From Flavobacteriaceae bacterium (GTDB lineage: Bacteria > Bacteroidota > Bacteroidia > Flavobacteriales > Flavobacteriaceae), in the NCBI GenBank assembly GCA_947457255.1, contig CANGUZ010000001.1:62001-126000 (forward strand): DNA of 64,000 bases, read 5' to 3'. The translations under genes and the position numbers were made by a program. Of the stretch, positions 42,529 through 52,929 are shown one piece after another. The notes under the pieces are model-generated. The model made no database searches and was not told where the DNA came from. It saw only the letters and a list, made by a program, of their open reading frames with translations. Within the stretch, counting starts at the first letter, position 1; every line of letters starts with the position of its first letter.

Positions 42529-43341
42529 ATGGAAGAAAATCTTAAACGCCTCAATAAATTTATAGGAGAAACAGGCTATTGCTCTCGACGTGAAGCCGAT
42601 AAAATTATCGAAGAAGGTCGCGTTACTATAAATGGCGTAGTGCCAGAATTAGGAACTAAAGTTTCGCCAAATGATGAAGTGCGCATAGATGGAAAACTCA
42701 TTCGAGAAAAAACCGAAAAGCTAGTCTATCTCGCTTTCAACAAACCCGTAGGAATAGAATGCACCACAAACTTAGATGTTCGTAATAATATAGTCGATTA
42801 CATCAATTATCCAACCCGTATTTTCCCAATTGGCCGATTAGACAAAGCCAGTGAAGGTTTGATTTTTATGACCAATGATGGTGATATTGTCAATAAAATT
42901 CTTCGTGCCAGAAACAACCACGAAAAAGAATATACCGTAACGGTCAACAAACTGATAACTGATCGTTTTATTGAGAAAATGAGTAATGGCATTCCTATTT
43001 TAGATACGGTTACCCGAAAATGCAAAGTAGAAAAAATCAGTTCAAGCACTTTTAAAATCATCTTGACGCAAGGTTTAAACCGTCAAATTCGTAGAATGTG
43101 TGAATATTTGGGTTATGAAGTTACAGCATTGAAACGCATTCGAATTATCAATATATCCTTGGATATTCCTTTGGGTCGCTATCGTGATTTGACAGATGCT
43201 GAAATTAAAGAACTGAACCAACTTATCGAACCTTCAAGTAAAACCCAAGAAGCAAGTTTACCAAAAGCGGAACCCATAAAACGTAGAACAGAATTTATTA
43301 AAAGAGATGATCCGAGGTTTAAGAAAAAGGGAGATTATTAG
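42529..43341 (+). CDS. rluF: 23S rRNA pseudouridine(2604) synthase
   Basis: S4 domain LNKFIGETGYCSRREADKIIEEGRVTING; FPIGRLDKASEGLIFMTNDGD; GLNRQIRRMCEYLGY. Confidence 0.93.
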   Translation: MEENLKRLNKFIGETGYCSRREADKIIEEGRVTINGVVPELGTKVSPNDEVRIDGKLIREKTEKLVYLAFNKPVGIECTTNLDVRNNIVDYINYPTRIFPIGRLDKASEGLIFMTNDGDIVNKILRARNNHEKEYTVTVNKLITDRFIEKMSNGIPILDTVTRKCKVEKISSSTFKIILTQGLNRQIRRMCEYLGYEVTALKRIRIINISLDIPLGRYRDLTDAEIKELNQLIEPSSKTQEASLPKAEPIKRRTEFIKRDDPRFKKKGDY

Positions 43342-43348
43342 TAAAAAT

Positions 43349-43390
43349 GACTAGCCCTAAATAATCGACACAGATTATTTAGGACTAGTC
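43349..43390. terminator. Bidirectional terminator hairpin between rluF and the convergent lipoprotein gene
   Basis: GACTAGCCCTAAATAATC-GACACA-GATTATTTAGGACTAGTC, 18-bp stem with one mismatch. Confidence 0.75.
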
Positions 43391-43405
43391 AAATTCGTAT
43401 TTAGA

Positions 43406-44119
43406 TTAATCCTCGTCATCTAAATAGGTCTCTTTTTCGATTAAGTCTTTTAGTTTATCGCCAATACTGGAATTTCCATCATCATCACCGGTTGTAATTT
43501 CGATTGTACCATCGTCATCATTATCAACAAGTAAACCATTATTTGCTAAAGAATTCAATTCTGCCATCAATGCATCTAGTTGAATTTTGATGTAGAGAGC
43601 AACTCTATTATCATTAATTAAAAAATCTTTGGAAGGATCTTTAAAATCTAATTCCAGTTCAATATCCTTATCACTCCAGAGTACGAAAGGTTTATTATTA
43701 ATTGTTCCTTTAATTATAAAAGTTTTGCCCAATAAATCTCCCGTGATAAGGCTTTTAGTAAATTTATACTTGATTTCTTCATACTTAGCATTTGGTACTT
43801 CAATAGAAGTAATAAATTGACTTTGTGGCTTGTTTGGCTCTAGTAAATCTAGTAAAAAAGGACCATCGAGTTTAACATCTTCAAATACAGGGTCTGAAGA
43901 ATACCTATCATCATCTTCATCAATTTCTAATTCAATATTTCCTAAATTAATCTTGAAATCATTAATTACTACCGTAGATGAGGTTCTTCCAGTTGAAGAA
44001 GTTTTACCTGTTTTGGATACTACAGCAGCTTTTATTGATACGCTGCCACTTGTAGAAGTATCCTCTGAACACGAACTGATTGCAAAGGCAATCAAAGCTA
44101 AAATTGAAATTTTTTTCAT
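43406..44119 (-). CDS. Putative lipoprotein, acidic with Asp-rich C-terminus (DUF4382-like)
   Basis: Lipobox AFAISSCSED; VVINDFKINLGNIELEIDEDDD; DNDDDGTIEITTGDDDGN. Confidence 0.7.
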   Translation of the reverse strand: MKKISILALIAFAISSCSEDTSTSGSVSIKAAVVSKTGKTSSTGRTSSTVVINDFKINLGNIELEIDEDDDRYSSDPVFEDVKLDGPFLLDLLEPNKPQSQFITSIEVPNAKYEEIKYKFTKSLITGDLLGKTFIIKGTINNKPFVLWSDKDIELELDFKDPSKDFLINDNRVALYIKIQLDALMAELNSLANNGLLVDNDDDGTIEITTGDDDGNSSIGDKLKDLIEKETYLDDED

Positions 44120-44263
44120 AATGTTTAATTTTAAAAAGGGTTAAGTAAATTGTAATTTTTTTATTCAACGAATACCTAGAATTGCGACTAATAATGTTTT
44201 AAAACTAATAATGAGTTTAAATTAAATTTGAATAATTTCATTCTCATTTTCTAAATATTGAGA

Positions 44264-44335
44264 CAAAATTACACTTAAGAATGTAACGAAATCAGATAAA
44301 TTAGAATTCGATATTTTCATCGAGAATTCGATTTC
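44264..44335 (-). promoter_or_regulatory. Promoter A: -7 TAATTTTG plus upstream direct-repeat operator
   Basis: Minus strand: GAAATCGAATTCTCGATGAAAATATCGAATTCTAATTTATCT then TAATTTTG (44264-44271); GAATTCGAT at 44304 and 44324 on plus. Confidence 0.7.
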
Positions 44336-44869
44336 TATATAAATCAAAACTTATCAAATTATATATTTAAAATTTAAAATAATCTTTTAATTCAATATTA
44401 ATGAAGTGAATATGAAACAATACAAAAAGCATGATTTAGGTACTTACATTCGTTGTTTTTGCATTAAAGTCATTCTTTTTAGAAAATCAACTATGAATCT
44501 AAAAAAAAAGCGAATGTCTATTGCTAAAACCATTTTGTGAGAAGTAAGTTAAAAATAGATATCTACTACATACTTTAAAAATATTTGTAAAGTAATATCA
44601 GGATTCAATGAGTTTAATTACATAAAAGATAGCATTAAAAGCTTATCAATAAAGAACTTTTATGTTGTGATTATCCTTAAAAATGTTTAATATTGTTTTG
44701 AATTATTTTTCAAACAAATTTGTTTATTATACTCTTTATCTGCAGGATAAGATTTAGCATAAATGCTTTACCTGTTAAACTTTCAAATTCATCGACCTAC
44801 TTTGCCTGAATAATTTTAAATCAAATATGCCAAATTGAAGAACAATTAACGAAACTATTCTTATCGCAA

Positions 44870-47062
44870 ATGCCACAAAATAATAAAACCATCATCGATT
44901 TGTTGGATAAATCCTACTTGAGCAGGGTTTGCAATCTGGAACTAAGTATAAAACTAGCTAAGCAAGCATTACATTTGTGTGATAACCCAAATTTCGAACA
45001 CCTAAAAGCTAAAGCTTTAAGTCAACTTTCGCTATACTATATGATTGTTGGTAATTACGAGGAATCATATAACCTATCTCAAAAAAGTATGCATTTATTT
45101 GAGAAAAGTAAAAATGAAATTGGTATTGCAGAGGTTAAATATAACTTGGCTGGATTTTATTATAAAACTAATAATTATCAATTAGGAGTCGTCAATTTGA
45201 TTGATGCTTTGATTATTTTTAAAAAAAACAACAATTATCATTACATTTCAAAATGTGAAAAAGCCTTAGGTACTGTTTATGAATTTATTGATGATGAACA
45301 AAATGCAATTCAGTCATACAAAAACGCCATCAAAGCCGCCAAAAAAATAGGTGATACCAATCTTGAAACTAATGCTTACAATAATTTATCAGGTATTTAT
45401 ATTAAAAATAACAAAATTGATATCGCCAATGAAATTATTGAAAAATCGATTGCTATTAAATACAAGAACAATGATTTACGTGGACTTGCTTTTGCAATTT
45501 ATGGTAAAGGAAAAATAAATTTTTATAAAAAAAAATTCGAGTTAGCTATTGAGAATTTCAAGCAATCTATTGTAATTCACGAACAGATGGGTGAAAAACT
45601 TGGACTAGCTATGGCAAACTATAAATTAGCCAAACTATATTTTGAGACGAAGGATGTGCAAACTTCAAAAAAATATTTAGAAAAGTCGCTAAGAATATGT
45701 AACACTTACAATATTTCAATAATTAAAATTAAAGTTCATCATTTATTTTATGGTATTTATAAGCTAGAAAAAAATAATAGAAAATCATTATACCATCTGG
45801 AGCTTTTCCTTAAAGAAAAAGAAACTGTTTTTAAAGCTAAAGATCTTAAAGTTATAGAAAATTATGATTTATTGCTTCGAATGCAAACCTTAAAGAAGGA
45901 AACAGAACTGCAACAAGAAAACACAAAATTAATAGTAAAAAAAAATAAAGCTGAAGAATCATTAAGAGTTAGAAAAGAGTTTCTCTCAACTATGAGTCAC
46001 GAGATAAGGACGCCACTAAACGCCATAATTACAATTGCAGCAATTCTCGGCGAAAACTCTAACACTGAAAATGAAACTTTATTACATTCGCTTAAATTTT
46101 CAAGCAATCATTTATTAAAGATTGTTAACGATATTTTAGATTTTACCAAACTAGATTCAGGTAAAATGGATTTAGATCCTATATCTACAAACTTTAAAAA
46201 ATTTATTGAGCATTTATGGATTACCTATACACATGCCGCTAATAAGGAAAATTTAAATTTTGAATTAAATATCGATTCTGAAATAAATGACACTTATTAT
46301 ATAGACCAAACAAAGATTACTCAAATTCTTTGCAACCTCATCAGCAATGCTGTTAAATTTACTGAACAAGGAAATATAAAGCTAGAAATTAATGTCTTAA
46401 AAAAACAGGAAGAAACCGATTCAGTTTTATTTAAGGTTATAGATACAGGAATTGGTATTGAAAAGGAAAATATTGAAGCCATTTTTGACACTTTTTCACA
46501 ATTAAAAAAAGGAATTACTCGTAAAAAAGATGGAACAGGTTTGGGATTAACAATTTCAAAACAACTGATAGAACTTCACCAAAGTGCTATAAAAGTAACT
46601 AGTGTTTTCGGTAAAGGATCTACCTTTTCATTTGAACTGCAATTAAAAAAAGGTATCAGTCAGAATATAAATAGTGAAGTAAATCTGAAAAAAGATTTAG
46701 CGGGAACTTCTGTTTTATTAGTTGAAGATAATGCCATAAATGCAATGGTAGCTAAAAAACTCTTGTCACAATGGGGCTTTATAGTAGACCTTGCGATCAA
46801 TGGATTAATTGCTACCGAAAAATCGAAAACAACAAAATACGACTACATATTAATGGATATTCACATGCCTGTTTTAGATGGTTATCAGGCTGCAAAAAAT
46901 ATAAGAACCCTTCAAAATTTAAACAAAGAAACTCCAATCTTTGGACTTACAGCTGATATATCAGCGCAAGATAACACTGATTATAATTTTTACTTTAATG
47001 ACTTTTTATTGAAGCCATTAGAAATTGAAAAAATGAAAGCTGCACTTACCTCAAATTGCTAA
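44870..47062 (+). CDS. TPR-containing hybrid histidine kinase/response regulator, apparently soluble
   Basis: TPR repeats; HisKA STMSHEIRTPLNAI; HATPase GTGLGLTISKQL; receiver LVEDNAINAMVAKKLL, LMDIHMPVLDGY; no signal peptide or TM evident. Confidence 0.92.
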   Translation: MPQNNKTIIDLLDKSYLSRVCNLELSIKLAKQALHLCDNPNFEHLKAKALSQLSLYYMIVGNYEESYNLSQKSMHLFEKSKNEIGIAEVKYNLAGFYYKTNNYQLGVVNLIDALIIFKKNNNYHYISKCEKALGTVYEFIDDEQNAIQSYKNAIKAAKKIGDTNLETNAYNNLSGIYIKNNKIDIANEIIEKSIAIKYKNNDLRGLAFAIYGKGKINFYKKKFELAIENFKQSIVIHEQMGEKLGLAMANYKLAKLYFETKDVQTSKKYLEKSLRICNTYNISIIKIKVHHLFYGIYKLEKNNRKSLYHLELFLKEKETVFKAKDLKVIENYDLLLRMQTLKKETELQQENTKLIVKKNKAEESLRVRKEFLSTMSHEIRTPLNAIITIAAILGENSNTENETLLHSLKFSSNHLLKIVNDILDFTKLDSGKMDLDPISTNFKKFIEHLWITYTHAANKENLNFELNIDSEINDTYYIDQTKITQILCNLISNAVKFTEQGNIKLEINVLKKQEETDSVLFKVIDTGIGIEKENIEAIFDTFSQLKKGITRKKDGTGLGLTISKQLIELHQSAIKVTSVFGKGSTFSFELQLKKGISQNINSEVNLKKDLAGTSVLLVEDNAINAMVAKKLLSQWGFIVDLAINGLIATEKSKTTKYDYILMDIHMPVLDGYQAAKNIRTLQNLNKETPIFGLTADISAQDNTDYNFYFNDFLLKPLEIEKMKAALTSNC

Positions 47063-47070
47063 ATATAGAG

Positions 47071-47110
47071 AAGCTACTAACTCGTTTAAATAAAACGTGT
47101 TAGTAGCTTT
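47071..47110. terminator. Bidirectional terminator hairpin between convergent genes
   Basis: AAGCTACTAACTCGTTT / AAACGTGTTAGTAGCTT, 17-bp stem with one mismatch. Confidence 0.8.
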
Positions 47111-47127
47111 TATGTATTAAAAAAAAA

Positions 47128-49140
47128 TTATTTTTTAAATACTTTTTCAATTTTATGTCCTTTGTCAGAAGTTATTTTTAAAAAATAAACTCCCGAAGAC
47201 CTGCTTGTTAAATCGATACTTGATAACGAACCATTTAAGACATTAGTTTGCAATAATCGACCGTATATGTCATATAATTGTATCGTTTGTAAAACATTAT
47301 TTGATACGACATTAATGATTGACGTAGTAGGATTTGGTGACACATTTATTGACTGATCAAAATCGCTGATTAAAAGACTTAGGTTTTGAAAGGTCGTATT
47401 TGCAATTTCTGTTTGCGAAACTATTGGGGCAGTTTGCACGGCATCATAGTCAAAAAATATCTCAGCTTCAGTATTTACTGTCGAACCATTTGTTAAATTA
47501 TTATTAGTTTTAATTTTAAGTAAAATTCCACCTTGTCCGCCAGGACCACCAACATTAGCTCTGCGCATATTTAATCTTACTTTTTGATTTTGAGCGCTTA
47601 CCAACAGTTCGCTAGAAGAATTAAGAATTTGGATGGAATTTATGTCGTATTGTGTAGCATCAAAATTAGTGTTGACCACGACGTTTTTTGCAATTTGAGT
47701 TCCAGTATTCTCGAAATTTATAGCATAATGAAGAAATTTCCCTATTTCAGATGATGATGCTGAACTGCCTTGAATACATTCTATTCGATTAGGGTTAGTG
47801 GCTTGAACATTTTGTCTGTATAGAAAAAAATTATCTGATTGAGTACTAAGTTCTTCTCCATTCGGGGTAATACTTAAGGAGTAATCCAGAACATCTCCAT
47901 TTTTTACAGCACTATTTACATTTAAAACTACTTGAAAACTTCTAGTTTCAAATGTCCGTAAATTAGTATAAGCTAAAGATAATACTCCAGTCCCAGAATT
48001 TACCAAAGGGATGGTTGACGAAACAAAATCTAGAACATTTTCATTAAAACCAAAAGTAACTTCTCCAGTATGTGTTTGATTTCCTTTGTTCTTAAAAACA
48101 ATTTCATAACTAGCATTCGAACCTGAAATTACTTCTGATGTTGGCCTAACCATAACTTCTACGTCAGTATGAATTCCGACAGGAGCCAAAATGAAATTTT
48201 GATTGAATACATTATTACTACTATCGGGAAAGTTTCCTGCAACGTTAGTAATAGTAAACCAAGTTGAGTTTTCAATACTTGGTACTACATCAAAATCACC
48301 AGTTTCTGTAGTGGTAAAAGTATAATTTGCATCTTGTTCGGTAACAGTTTGCACTATTTCGCTATCATCATTTCCCAAAGTACTTTTTAGTTTTACATAA
48401 GCCCAAGGCAGATCACTTGAATCTAAACCATTACCCTCAGCGTCAAAATACAATTTTCCCTTAATTGTATTAAAATTACCTCCAAGAACACTGGTGCAAT
48501 AAGAATTTACAATGCAACCATTAGTTACTTGAGCTTGTAAATTGAGGATTTGAATTTCGTCAGCACAAATATAGTTGATGTTTTGATTCAATGTACCACT
48601 AAAATCTATTGTTTCATCAGTTCCATTTTTTGCAAAAATTTGTAAAATAGGGTTGTTAGCCACTTTCAAATCTTCAAGCTTAATTAAAGTCGATACATCT
48701 ACTTTTTGAAGGAGATTATTATTACAATCAATTTCTATCATAGAGATACAACCTGAAACATTTAATTCATTTATTTGATTATTATTCAAAAAAATATATT
48801 CTAACAATGGCATATTTGAAAGGTTTACACTTCCTAAAATAGCACTACTTTGAGCATCTAACTTGGTTAAATTTACAAAAAAAAGAATTCCTTCAAGGCT
48901 ATTAATGGCACTTTCATTAGGTAAGAATAATTCATAAACTAAAGCTGCTTCCTGAACGGTAATTTGACTGTCATTATCTGCATCTATTTTAAGATTGTTT
49001 CCTCCAAGAGATTTTGCAATATTATTAGTCACATCAGATTCTAACAATTTTAACTTAAAATCGTTATCTGCAAAAGAGATTACTTGGGCTTGGGCAATTC
49101 CTACAATCAGGAAAAGCGTTAGGTATATTAAATTTTTCAT
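47128..49140 (-). CDS. T9SS type A sorting domain protein with leucine-rich-like and conserved DUF11/DUF7619-like repeat domains
   Basis: Signal peptide; LEYIFLNNNQINELNVSGC repeats; C-terminal NVSPNPTTSIINVVS...YDIYGRLLQT...GVYFLKITSDKGHKIEKVFKK. Confidence 0.9.
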   Translation of the reverse strand: MKNLIYLTLFLIVGIAQAQVISFADNDFKLKLLESDVTNNIAKSLGGNNLKIDADNDSQITVQEAALVYELFLPNESAINSLEGILFFVNLTKLDAQSSAILGSVNLSNMPLLEYIFLNNNQINELNVSGCISMIEIDCNNNLLQKVDVSTLIKLEDLKVANNPILQIFAKNGTDETIDFSGTLNQNINYICADEIQILNLQAQVTNGCIVNSYCTSVLGGNFNTIKGKLYFDAEGNGLDSSDLPWAYVKLKSTLGNDDSEIVQTVTEQDANYTFTTTETGDFDVVPSIENSTWFTITNVAGNFPDSSNNVFNQNFILAPVGIHTDVEVMVRPTSEVISGSNASYEIVFKNKGNQTHTGEVTFGFNENVLDFVSSTIPLVNSGTGVLSLAYTNLRTFETRSFQVVLNVNSAVKNGDVLDYSLSITPNGEELSTQSDNFFLYRQNVQATNPNRIECIQGSSASSSEIGKFLHYAINFENTGTQIAKNVVVNTNFDATQYDINSIQILNSSSELLVSAQNQKVRLNMRRANVGGPGGQGGILLKIKTNNNLTNGSTVNTEAEIFFDYDAVQTAPIVSQTEIANTTFQNLSLLISDFDQSINVSPNPTTSIINVVSNNVLQTIQLYDIYGRLLQTNVLNGSLSSIDLTSRSSGVYFLKITSDKGHKIEKVFKK

Positions 49141-49189
49141 TTCTTGTTGTCATTTAATTTATTAGTGTAAAAGGGAAGTCTCTTATTTA

Positions 49190-49957
49190 TTAATTTAATC
49201 TTTTTAATAATATATCGTTCAGCATTACTCTTTTTCGTTGCGCTATTGGAAGATAACTGTCATCTGACATAAGTATTAGTCCATTTTCTTTTTTCTCAAA
49301 TGATTTAACATAGGATAAATTGATAAGGTGTGATTGATGAATTCTGACAAAATCGTGATCCGTTAATAGTTCTTCGTATTCTTTAAGAGTTTTAGATATT
49401 AAAATAGGTTTTCTGTTTTTGATAATAAAGTTGGTATAATTGTCATTACTCTCGCAACGGATAATATCGCAAATATCAATTAGATGAATTCCATCAGAAT
49501 TAGACAATGCAATACGTTTAAAATCGTCAGTTTCTTTTCTAATATTTTCTAACAGTAAGTCAATATGAGAATAATCGCTATCTTTTTCTAAAACAGTTCT
49601 TATTTTTTCAATTACATTTTCTAATTCACTCGGAATTACGGGTTTCAATAAAAAGTCTAAGGCACTAAATCGAAATGCCTTTATAGCATAATGCTCATAA
49701 GCAGTTATAAATACAATGTTTGAGGTTACTTTACCATTCATTTCTGAAAGTTTTTCAAGAATATCAAATCCTGTTCCATCGTTCATTTGTATATCTAAGA
49801 ATACAACTTGAGGTTTAATTTTGTTAATTATTTTAACTCCACTTTCAACACTATCTGCCTCTCCTCGGATAGAAATATCCGGAGCATAAATAGACAAAAG
49901 TCCTTTCATTCCCTCTCGCAAATTCACATCATCATCTACTAATACTGCTGTAATCAT
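49190..49957 (-). CDS. LytTR family response regulator
   Basis: Receiver AVLVDDDVNLREG, VVFLDIQMNDGTGFDIL; C-terminal LytTR (DIIRCESNDNYTNFII...FVRIHQSHLINLSYV). Confidence 0.94.
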   Translation of the reverse strand: MITAVLVDDDVNLREGMKGLLSIYAPDISIRGEADSVESGVKIINKIKPQVVFLDIQMNDGTGFDILEKLSEMNGKVTSNIVFITAYEHYAIKAFRFSALDFLLKPVIPSELENVIEKIRTVLEKDSDYSHIDLLLENIRKETDDFKRIALSNSDGIHLIDICDIIRCESNDNYTNFIIKNRKPILISKTLKEYEELLTDHDFVRIHQSHLINLSYVKSFEKKENGLILMSDDSYLPIAQRKRVMLNDILLKRLN

Positions 49958-49978
49958 CTCAATTTTTAGTTTAAATTA

Positions 49979-51940
49979 TTATAAATTAGGTAAATATTGT
50001 AAAGGAAGAATAAGCGTAGCTCTAGTACCCTTTACCTCGCTGTTCTCTTCTATTTGTTCTATAGAAACTGTAGCTTCTTGTGAAGTTGAAGTCTCCATCA
50101 TTTCTAACCTTTTTCTAGTAATATCAAGCGCCATTGATTTGTGCATAGAAATCTTTTTTTCTTTTAACTCCTTAGATACATTTATACCTATGCCATTATC
50201 AGTAACAACGCAAACCAAACATTGATTTTCTATTTTAAAATCAACTACTATTAGTCCTGTATTTACTTTAGAGTTGACTCCATGAATGATTGCATTTTCT
50301 ATAAAAGGTTGTAATAATATTGGAGGTAGAGCAACATCATCATCTATATCGCTACTTTTATTTATAATAAATTGAAAAGACCCATTAAATCGCAATTGCT
50401 CTAATTCAAGGTAATTTTGTAAACTTTCTATTTCTTTATCAATCGGAATAAGTGTTTCCTTTGAATATTCTAATGTTAAACGCATCAATTTAGAAAATTT
50501 TGCCAGATAAATAATTGCCGCCTCAGTACTATTTTTTACAATAAAACTTGAAATAGAACCTAGACAATTAAAAATAAAATGGGGGTTCATTTGCAAGTGC
50601 AAGGCTTTTTGCTCATAGACAGCTAATTCTTTTTCCAGAGTTAACTTTTTCTTCAAAACGGATTTATTATAAATTAAAAACAAAATACCACAAACAAATA
50701 GAACTAAAAAAGCAGCAAAAGCTATTTTTATCTTATTGAGCTTAGCCTCTTGTTTATACTCTAAATCTTTTTTAAATTGTGCTTCTTGTTGTAACATTTC
50801 TTTTCGATCAAAATCGTAATTCATTTCAGCACGAATAGTACTTTTTACCGTTTCTGCATTGGCAAGACTATCCTTAGCAATACTATATAGTTTGTAGTGT
50901 TTTAATGACGCAGCAAGATTATTCTGCTTTTCATAAATTTCACTTAATGATTTCTCAAAAGATTGTATTTTATCTAAGACGTTCAATTCTTTGGCAATAT
51001 TCAATGCTTTACTAATATACTCCAATGCTAATTTATTATTATTTTGCTCGAAATAAATAGTCCCCAATAGCGCATAAGAATCAGCAATCATAAATTTATT
51101 TTCAACAATTGTAAAAAAATCTAATGCCTTTTTAGAATAATCAATAGCTTTTTCATTTTGATTTACAATTTTGTAGTACAATCCATAATTATAAAACAAT
51201 TCAGCCAATCCATATGGATTTGGATACTTATCAAAATAGTTTTTTGATTTATTAAAATATTCTAATCCCTTAGGAAAATCTTTAAGATTTAAATAAACTA
51301 ATCCAATATTATTATTTGTAGTCCCAATATTTTTGTCATTTAACTTTTCTTGAATACTTAAACACTTTTCATAGTAGCTTAATGATTTAAAAAAATCTCC
51401 TTGTGATTTATAGATTACGCCAATATTATTATAAATTACTGCTTGTTTAATTATATTATTTGTTTTTTGAAAAATTTTTAAAGCTTTAAAATTAAATGAT
51501 AAAGCCTTTGAGTAGTTGCTTTGCTGCATAAAAACAAAACCAATACTACCATAAGCTCTGGCTAAGCCATTTTGTAGTTCAATTTCATTTGACTTAAAAG
51601 ATATTTCGTTTTCAAAAATATGTTGAGCTTTTAAAAAATTATCAAGTGCATTTGAATAATTGCCAAAGATGACATTTGCATTGCCTATATAATGGTAAGC
51701 ATTTCCCTGTTCGATTTTAAAGCCAATTTTACTCGATAAACTCAAGGCCTTATTCGCATAACTTAACATTAACTTTGGATTATTAGCACTGTATTCACTT
51801 GCTAAATTATTAAGTAATTTTGATCTAAGAATATCACTATTTGCATTTTTTAATTGCACATGTAAACTATCAATAGTTTTGTTCTGTGCAGTAATAAAAA
51901 ATGAAGAAATAAAAATAAATAAGAATAACTTTAATCTCAT
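49979..51940 (-). CDS. TPR-containing LytS-type sensor histidine kinase
   Basis: Signal peptide, TPRs, TM, His_kinase motif LHLQMNPHFIFNCLGSISSFI, PPILLQPFIENAIIHGV. Confidence 0.94.
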   Translation of the reverse strand: MRLKLFLFIFISSFFITAQNKTIDSLHVQLKNANSDILRSKLLNNLASEYSANNPKLMLSYANKALSLSSKIGFKIEQGNAYHYIGNANVIFGNYSNALDNFLKAQHIFENEISFKSNEIELQNGLARAYGSIGFVFMQQSNYSKALSFNFKALKIFQKTNNIIKQAVIYNNIGVIYKSQGDFFKSLSYYEKCLSIQEKLNDKNIGTTNNNIGLVYLNLKDFPKGLEYFNKSKNYFDKYPNPYGLAELFYNYGLYYKIVNQNEKAIDYSKKALDFFTIVENKFMIADSYALLGTIYFEQNNNKLALEYISKALNIAKELNVLDKIQSFEKSLSEIYEKQNNLAASLKHYKLYSIAKDSLANAETVKSTIRAEMNYDFDRKEMLQQEAQFKKDLEYKQEAKLNKIKIAFAAFLVLFVCGILFLIYNKSVLKKKLTLEKELAVYEQKALHLQMNPHFIFNCLGSISSFIVKNSTEAAIIYLAKFSKLMRLTLEYSKETLIPIDKEIESLQNYLELEQLRFNGSFQFIINKSSDIDDDVALPPILLQPFIENAIIHGVNSKVNTGLIVVDFKIENQCLVCVVTDNGIGINVSKELKEKKISMHKSMALDITRKRLEMMETSTSQEATVSIEQIEENSEVKGTRATLILPLQYLPNL

Positions 51941-51956
51941 AGTCTAATCATTGTAA

Positions 51957-52028
51957 CAAAATTAAACTTTAGTTTTAAATAATGTAAGATAAATTAGAAT
52001 TCGATTTTTTAATCGAGAATTCGATTTC
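51957..52028 (-). promoter_or_regulatory. Promoter B: -7 TAATTTTG plus upstream direct-repeat operator
   Basis: Minus strand: GAAATCGAATTCTCGATTAAAAAATCGAATTCTAATTTATCT then TAATTTTG (51957-51964); GAATTCGAT at 51997 and 52017 on plus. Confidence 0.72.
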
Positions 52029-52789
52029 AATTTCAAATAATAGAAAATTATTTTGAAAGTATGAACTTTGCAAAAAAATTGTTATTCTCGTTTTTTACCT
52101 ATAATTATTAACTCTTATTTTTTATTTTGAAAAGACAACTTGACAAATAGTAAATTAACTAATGAAAACTATTAATAAATAGTTTTTACATAATTCAGTT
52201 TAAGTTTTAATTGCTATAGTTTTTTAACCCGTTGGGTGAAATTATTTAAAGTAAAATAAATTGAATAAAAAATGTTTAAGAATTTTAGAAATTATAAGTA
52301 CTTTGAATTGTGAATTACCATATAAATTTGGAATTGCCTTAAGTGTAATATGTTTAATTTAGAAGTTTTTTTATTGAGTTTAACAACTGAATTTATTCAG
52401 AATGAACAATAAGCAATAAACTAATATCTTTAGAAATTCAAGAAAAAAAATTGAAACATTATTTCCACAATTTTGTAACCAGTTCAAAATTAGAAACAAT
52501 TATGGTAAATCTTTTCAATTATCAAAAAAAAAAACGAATTTTAGCAAAAAAAAACAGTATTGACATTTATTCAATTCATCAACAAATTTATTATAAATAG
52601 ACCAATAAACAATATTTAGAATCAAATAATTTTAATAAACCCGACGGTTTATTTTATATTAAATTTTGATGACAATATCAATCTTTTTAATTTCTATTGC
52701 ATTTATTAATTGAGTATTTGTTTATTTTTAACCGTGTCGTTTTTCATATATTTTTTATCGCCATCAGTTCTTGAACATCAAGTCAAAAT

Positions 52790-52929
52790 AAATTAAAGAA
52801 CTGAACCAACTTATCGAATCTTCGAGTAAAACTGAAGAAGCCAGTTTATCAAAAGCGGAACCTGTAAAGCTCAGAACAGAATAAATTAAAAGAGACAATC
52901 CACGATTTAAGAAAAAAGAAGATTATTAA
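52790..52929 (+). pseudogene. Degenerate duplicate of the rluF 3' end
   Basis: Ungapped alignment to 43202-43341, 21 mismatches over 140 bp (about 85% identical); internal TAA in the rluF frame. Confidence 0.88.

Follow-up and report, generated by a model that had tools for sequence, protein, structure and literature searches.

The two near-identical paired repeats found in the window (the whole 64,000-bp stretch of DNA analysed here) are in all likelihood operators of the LytTR response regulator encoded nearby. Through them the regulator would activate its own kinase-regulator-T9SS operon, together with a lipoprotein gene captured by way of a duplicated kinase promoter. A sequence-only reading of the window had proposed an activator site for the LytTR regulator at 49190. 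This proposal is supported, at the level of sequence comparison, by conservation of the element, its spacing to the -7 box, its distribution among regulator carriers, a geometry typical of LytTR sites, and half-sites that change together with regulator residues.

Operon and paired repeats in the window

The features used in this work are the following.

43406-44119, minus strand: lipoprotein of 237 aa without a Pfam family, predicted recruited target
44219-44338, minus strand: duplicated block with operator, -7 box, leader and the kinase-start remnant ATGAGAATGAAATTATTC, 78% identical to 51912-52031
44264-44271, minus strand: -7 box TAATTTTG of the lipoprotein promoter, 40 bp past the proximal half-site
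44294-44335, minus strand: putative operator 1, 42 bp, upstream of the lipoprotein, half-sites TCGAATTCT at 44331-44323 and 44311-44303
44870-47062, plus strand: TPR hybrid histidine kinase (HisKA, HATPase_c, receiver), convergent with the T9SS gene
47128-49140, minus strand: T9SS-secreted protein (DUF7619, Por_Secre_tail), 50 bp behind the regulator
49190-49957, minus strand: response regulator with receiver and LytTR DNA-binding domain (Pfam, Foldseek), predicted operator binder
49979-51940, minus strand: TPR-containing LytS-like histidine kinase (His_kinase and HATPase_c, Pfam), predicted autoregulated target
51957-51964, minus strand: -7 box TAATTTTG of the kinase promoter, 40 bp past the proximal half-site
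51987-52028, minus strand: putative operator 2, 42 bp, upstream of the LytS-like kinase, half-sites TCGAATTCT at 52024-52016 and 52004-51996

Both domains of the regulator score above the Pfam cut-offs (PF00072 67.6 bits, PF04397 66.7 bits), making it a LytTR response regulator. The kinase matches PF06580 (His_kinase) with 77 bits, also above the cut-off, and its HATPase_c match of 24.3 bits (E 4e-5) is slightly under the cut-off of 26.4; the two proteins form a LytS/LytTR two-component pair. The hybrid kinase is without a DNA-binding domain. Terminator-like inverted repeats are located between convergent genes at 47062-47118 and 43348-43391.

The two 42-mers are identical at 40 of 42 positions, as the sequence-only reading had it, and each carries ATCGAATTC twice with a period of 20 bp. 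The window contains exactly two occurrences of the pattern ATCGAATTC-N11-ATCGAATTC, and allowing up to three mismatches still returns just the two operators, against 0.17 matches expected. A genome-wide motif scan had been suggested as a check. Elsewhere in the 2.06 Mb assembly (65% complete) the pattern is matched with three mismatches at best, and no further strong site was found. When the same genome was scanned with a profile, the two operators obtained 39.3 and 37.8 bits and the next match 15.9 bits.

Conservation of the element in relatives

The unit conserved in relatives is TCRAATWCTMAWT, of which ATCGAATTC covers a part, and the repeat period is 21 bp in all relatives of clade 1, the larger of two regulator groups, versus 20 bp in the window. 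This means that 9-nt units are separated by 11 nt (window) or 12 nt (relatives), within the range described for LytTR sites, which consist of two repeats of 9-11 nt placed 11-13 nt apart (PMC4847170).

Flavobacterium MAGs are the nearest named relatives in which the system is found. Besides the genome of the window, 21 of 101 genus genomes encode a close regulator ortholog (57-73% identity), and the order of kinase, regulator and usually a DUF7619/T9SS gene is kept in 22 related loci. The nearest relatives, L186 and L187 (regulators 82% and 74% identical), hold all four genes in the order of the window, including the hybrid kinase.

A tandem repeat was found upstream of every kinase whose start is covered. 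All 16 of the clade-1 genus loci that were examined, the window included, have it before the kinase, and so do seven loci found later (L181-L187) which took no part in building the profile, for a total of 22/22 comparable clade-1 relatives. Five of these later loci come from other genera of the family, and three of the five carry the site before the T9SS gene as well. The position of the operator before the kinase-regulator operon is thus kept across the flavobacterial family.

In nine loci a second copy lies between the regulator and the T9SS (DUF7619) gene. A first scan of 23 loci, mostly of 19 kb, gave 20 strong pairs, all of them upstream of a kinase, right behind a regulator or before the window lipoprotein. 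It is very probable that the neighbouring LytTR regulator binds at these paired repeats.

The -7 box and promoter geometry

Both window promoters contain TAATTTTG, a -7 box of the flavobacterial sigma-A type (TAnnTTTG), at the same distance after the operator. The sequence-only reading was right about this equal spacing and about the missing TTG at -33 in both promoters. Its distance of 33 bp from proximal repeat to box has to be corrected to 41 bp, counted from the first base of ATCGAATTC; 32 bp separate the end of the proximal 9-mer from the box. The 40-bp offset used throughout takes the TC of the proximal half-site as its starting point. Because the -7 box is of sigma-A type, an alternative sigma factor was rejected.

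In 25 of the 26 promoters scored, namely 15/16 kinase promoters, 9/9 T9SS promoters and the lipoprotein promoter, a TAnnTTTR sequence begins 40-41 bp past the proximal half-site; its background frequency is 0.0017 per position. The exception is L078, where a box-like sequence is found 11 bp closer. A TTG at -33 is not commoner than chance (3 of 25 scored promoters, 3.9 expected), which is compatible with dependence on an activator.

From this geometry we infer the following mode of action. Two LytTR domains would bind the two directly repeated half-sites with core TCRAATWCTMAWT, which face almost the same side of the helix. Their centre would be at about -58, provided that, as in F. psychrophilum, the -7 box occupies -12 to -5 and transcription starts 5 bp downstream of it (PMC9723704). 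The bound regulator, presumably phosphorylated by the TPR-LytS kinase, would then activate transcription from a sigma-A promoter in which the TAnnTTTG -7 box is usually not accompanied by a -33 TTG. The first target would be the kinase-regulator-T9SS operon itself, giving positive autoregulation, and the second the lipoprotein gene at 43406-44119.

It is improbable, though worth weighing, that the LytTR regulator binds these sites yet represses, or that the hybrid kinase at 44870 provides input too. The hybrid kinase does belong to the cassette of the nearest relatives, and sequence cannot tell the direction of regulation. However, the site is placed ahead of the core promoter and leaves the -7 box uncovered, at what would be a distance like that of the AgrA activation sites, whose direct repeats are centred near -60 (PMC4227749), and the lack of any excess of -33 TTG likewise argues against repression.

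Genome-wide scans and predicted regulon

The 101 genus genomes were scanned with profile R1, using E<1e-5 as the definition of a strong site. Strong sites were found in 16/16 clade-1 regulator carriers versus 2/85 other genomes, a match that is in part by construction because R1 was trained on loci picked for carrying the regulator. An earlier pattern search with two mismatches in 200 genomes was uninformative and gave scattered matches, as the pattern followed neither the unit that relatives conserve nor their 21-bp period.

One of the two other genomes, G028, has a single strong site, located between the enolase and citrate synthase genes, which is the place of the cassette in several relatives:

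L168:4537-4603 (G028 contig 59), minus strand: orphan operator with -7 box and no kinase behind it

This orphan is probably the scar of a lost cassette. In the other genome, G100, six sites were found (E 1.5e-9 to 3.4e-5; loci L162-L167), mostly before genes for surface proteins, and one of them (L167) has three tandem half-sites; an ortholog of the kinase or regulator was not found in this 89% complete assembly. This case, like the deviating 20-bp period of the window, counts against the operator reading.

Genes behind extra sites in G100, G073, G087 (a weak site) and G449 largely encode secreted or surface proteins, including LRR/DUF7619/Por_Secre_tail, CHU_C, Fib_succ_major lipoprotein-like and fasciclin proteins. 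In G449 a second LytS-like kinase is among them. The predicted targets in relatives are accordingly described as mainly secreted or surface proteins. L173 and L253 share a near-identical weak tandem pair with TATATTTG directly behind it, before a proline dehydrogenase-like gene. These pairs were left out as probable chance matches, having a weak score and lacking the 40-bp spacing.

Duplication of the kinase promoter

Comparison of the window with itself aligns 44219-44338 and 51912-52031 without gaps over 120 bp, with 78% identity and an E-value of 1e-22. Within the block lie the operator and -7 box, followed by the leader and the kinase's first codons. The sequence between operator and box, which had been read as different at the two promoters, is therefore not unrelated but part of a paralogous alignment. 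It follows that the second site is a duplicate and no independent occurrence: the two sites of the window are one kinase promoter with its 5' coding end, duplicated. Among the genomes seen, the 20-bp period is unique to that of the window, and its presence in both copies is explained by a single deletion preceding the duplication.

The operator is absent at the eight closest lipoprotein orthologs (53-70% identity), which adjoin ffh in other genomes, and an ortholog was not detected in the two nearest regulator-carrying relatives. The lipoprotein gene was thus probably recruited within the lineage of the window. According to the preferred reading it would have come under control because the kinase promoter and first codons were duplicated in front of it, the promoter copy retaining operator and -7 box while the remainder decayed.

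Could the two operators be alike through the duplication alone, the lipoprotein-side copy being a decaying remnant without function? We regard this as unlikely. The ungapped 120-bp block with its remnant of the kinase start does demonstrate a duplication, but decay has not been even along it: the operator has 2 mismatches in 42 positions (95% identical) versus 24 in the other 78 (69% identical; Fisher p=0.0009), and the -7 box is kept at 8/8 positions. Furthermore, the lipoprotein frame is intact and the copy scores 38.6 bits against the profile.

A direct repeat of 139 bp (85.6% identical) is present at 43202-43340 and 52790-52928 in the window. It corresponds to the 3' end of an S4/pseudouridine synthase gene (42529-43341), with the second copy adjoining folD, so that the repeat flanks the segment from lipoprotein to kinase in the way an insertion or duplication would leave it. 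The stretch GTTCTGTACGAAAGCTTC, possibly a different operator, is shared by L111 and L112 upstream of their lipoprotein orthologs.

Regulator clades and putative recognition residues

A second clade of the regulator comprises seven loci, grouped as a single clade with support 100/100. Here the half-sites are AATAATAA, in two or three copies with a period of 21 bp, and the last copy is again 40 bp before the -7 box. For L082, L083 and L088 the pair listed is the distal one. The box is 61 bp from the second copy of this pair, which with a 21-bp period places it 40 bp from the third copy. Two genomes (G013 and G068) each carry one system of either clade type.

Twelve columns of the regulator alignment fully discriminate clade 1 from clade 2. 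Only 170, 171, 172, 176 and 241 are in the LytTR domain, while the other seven of the twelve belong to the receiver or the linker. A strand-turn-strand hairpin of the predicted structure contains 170-176, and 241 is near the start of the C-terminal helix. AgrA was not reached by a search of solved-structure sequences with the LytTR alignment, so the mapping of its residues rests on ungapped anchoring on the motif FhRhHxS, which is no structural alignment. By this anchoring H169 of AgrA corresponds to 176 and R233 to 240, beside R241. AgrA H169, N201 and R233 contact bases (PMC11039898), and the mutation R233A abolishes detectable binding (PMC4227749). The change between the clades is one evolutionary event, and therefore it supports recognition without being proof of it.

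We give about even chances to a wider picture, in which paralogous TPR-LytS/LytTR systems of flavobacteria keep an invariant geometry, switch half-site from TTCTAA to AATAATAA along with a few LytTR residues (loop 170-176, R241S), are insulated from each other within one cell, and control secreted-surface-protein regulons that grow by captured duplicated kinase promoters.

The distal half-site of the window holds a perfect inverted repeat, ATCGA-N4-TCGAT, but use of ATCGA-ATTC-TCGAT by another transcription factor such as a palindrome-binding repressor, with the LytTR gene a mere neighbour, is very improbable and a palindromic operator was rejected, since relatives conserve the direct repeat and not the palindrome, the site is found along with the regulator in other genera and at other chromosomal locations, and a change of half-site goes hand in hand with a change of LytTR residues.

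Comparison with known systems

AgrA of Staphylococcus aureus, acting at P2/P3, has in common with the window regulator the LytTR domain and paired 9-bp direct repeats, which for AgrA are centred at about -60 (PMC4227749). Its half-site ACAGTTAAG is unrelated, and host phylum, targets and kinase type (TPR-LytS in the window) differ. The YpdB/YpdA system of Escherichia coli is likewise a LytS/LytTR pair, with tandem 10-bp repeats bound by the LytTR regulator (PMC4847170); there is no half-site in common, and YpdB has the one target yhjX, whereas here the operon itself and genes for surface proteins are predicted. Foldseek, run on the predicted regulator structure, gave ComE of Streptococcus pneumoniae (4cbv) as the best match. 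Both proteins consist of receiver and LytTR domains, with 20% identity and a different biology.

In a limited search of open-licence literature, no described LytTR binding site in Bacteroidota was found. The predicted operator can be read from sequence by its fixed geometry, together with a putative regulon in which type IX-secreted proteins are joined by other surface proteins, and the lipoprotein would be a clear example of a gene joining a regulon through promoter duplication. As the two regulator clades form a natural pair with different half-sites, the LytTR recognition code can be tested by swapping residues and half-sites.

Repeats near more distant regulators

In a related LytTR group (L094, L095 and L098, about 42% identical), ACGAATTTCC, ACGAATATC or CGAATGTTCATTG is repeated two or three times in tandem with a 21-bp period, behind the regulator and further downstream. 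Additionally, tandem repeats of ATCAAATTCTA with a 21-bp period occur near 37-38% identical regulators in Saprospiraceae MAGs:

L197:9359-9397, minus strand: ATCAAATTCTA repeats
L198:9382-9416, minus strand: ATCAAATTCTA repeats

Those in L197 precede a gene for a secreted SH3-like protein.
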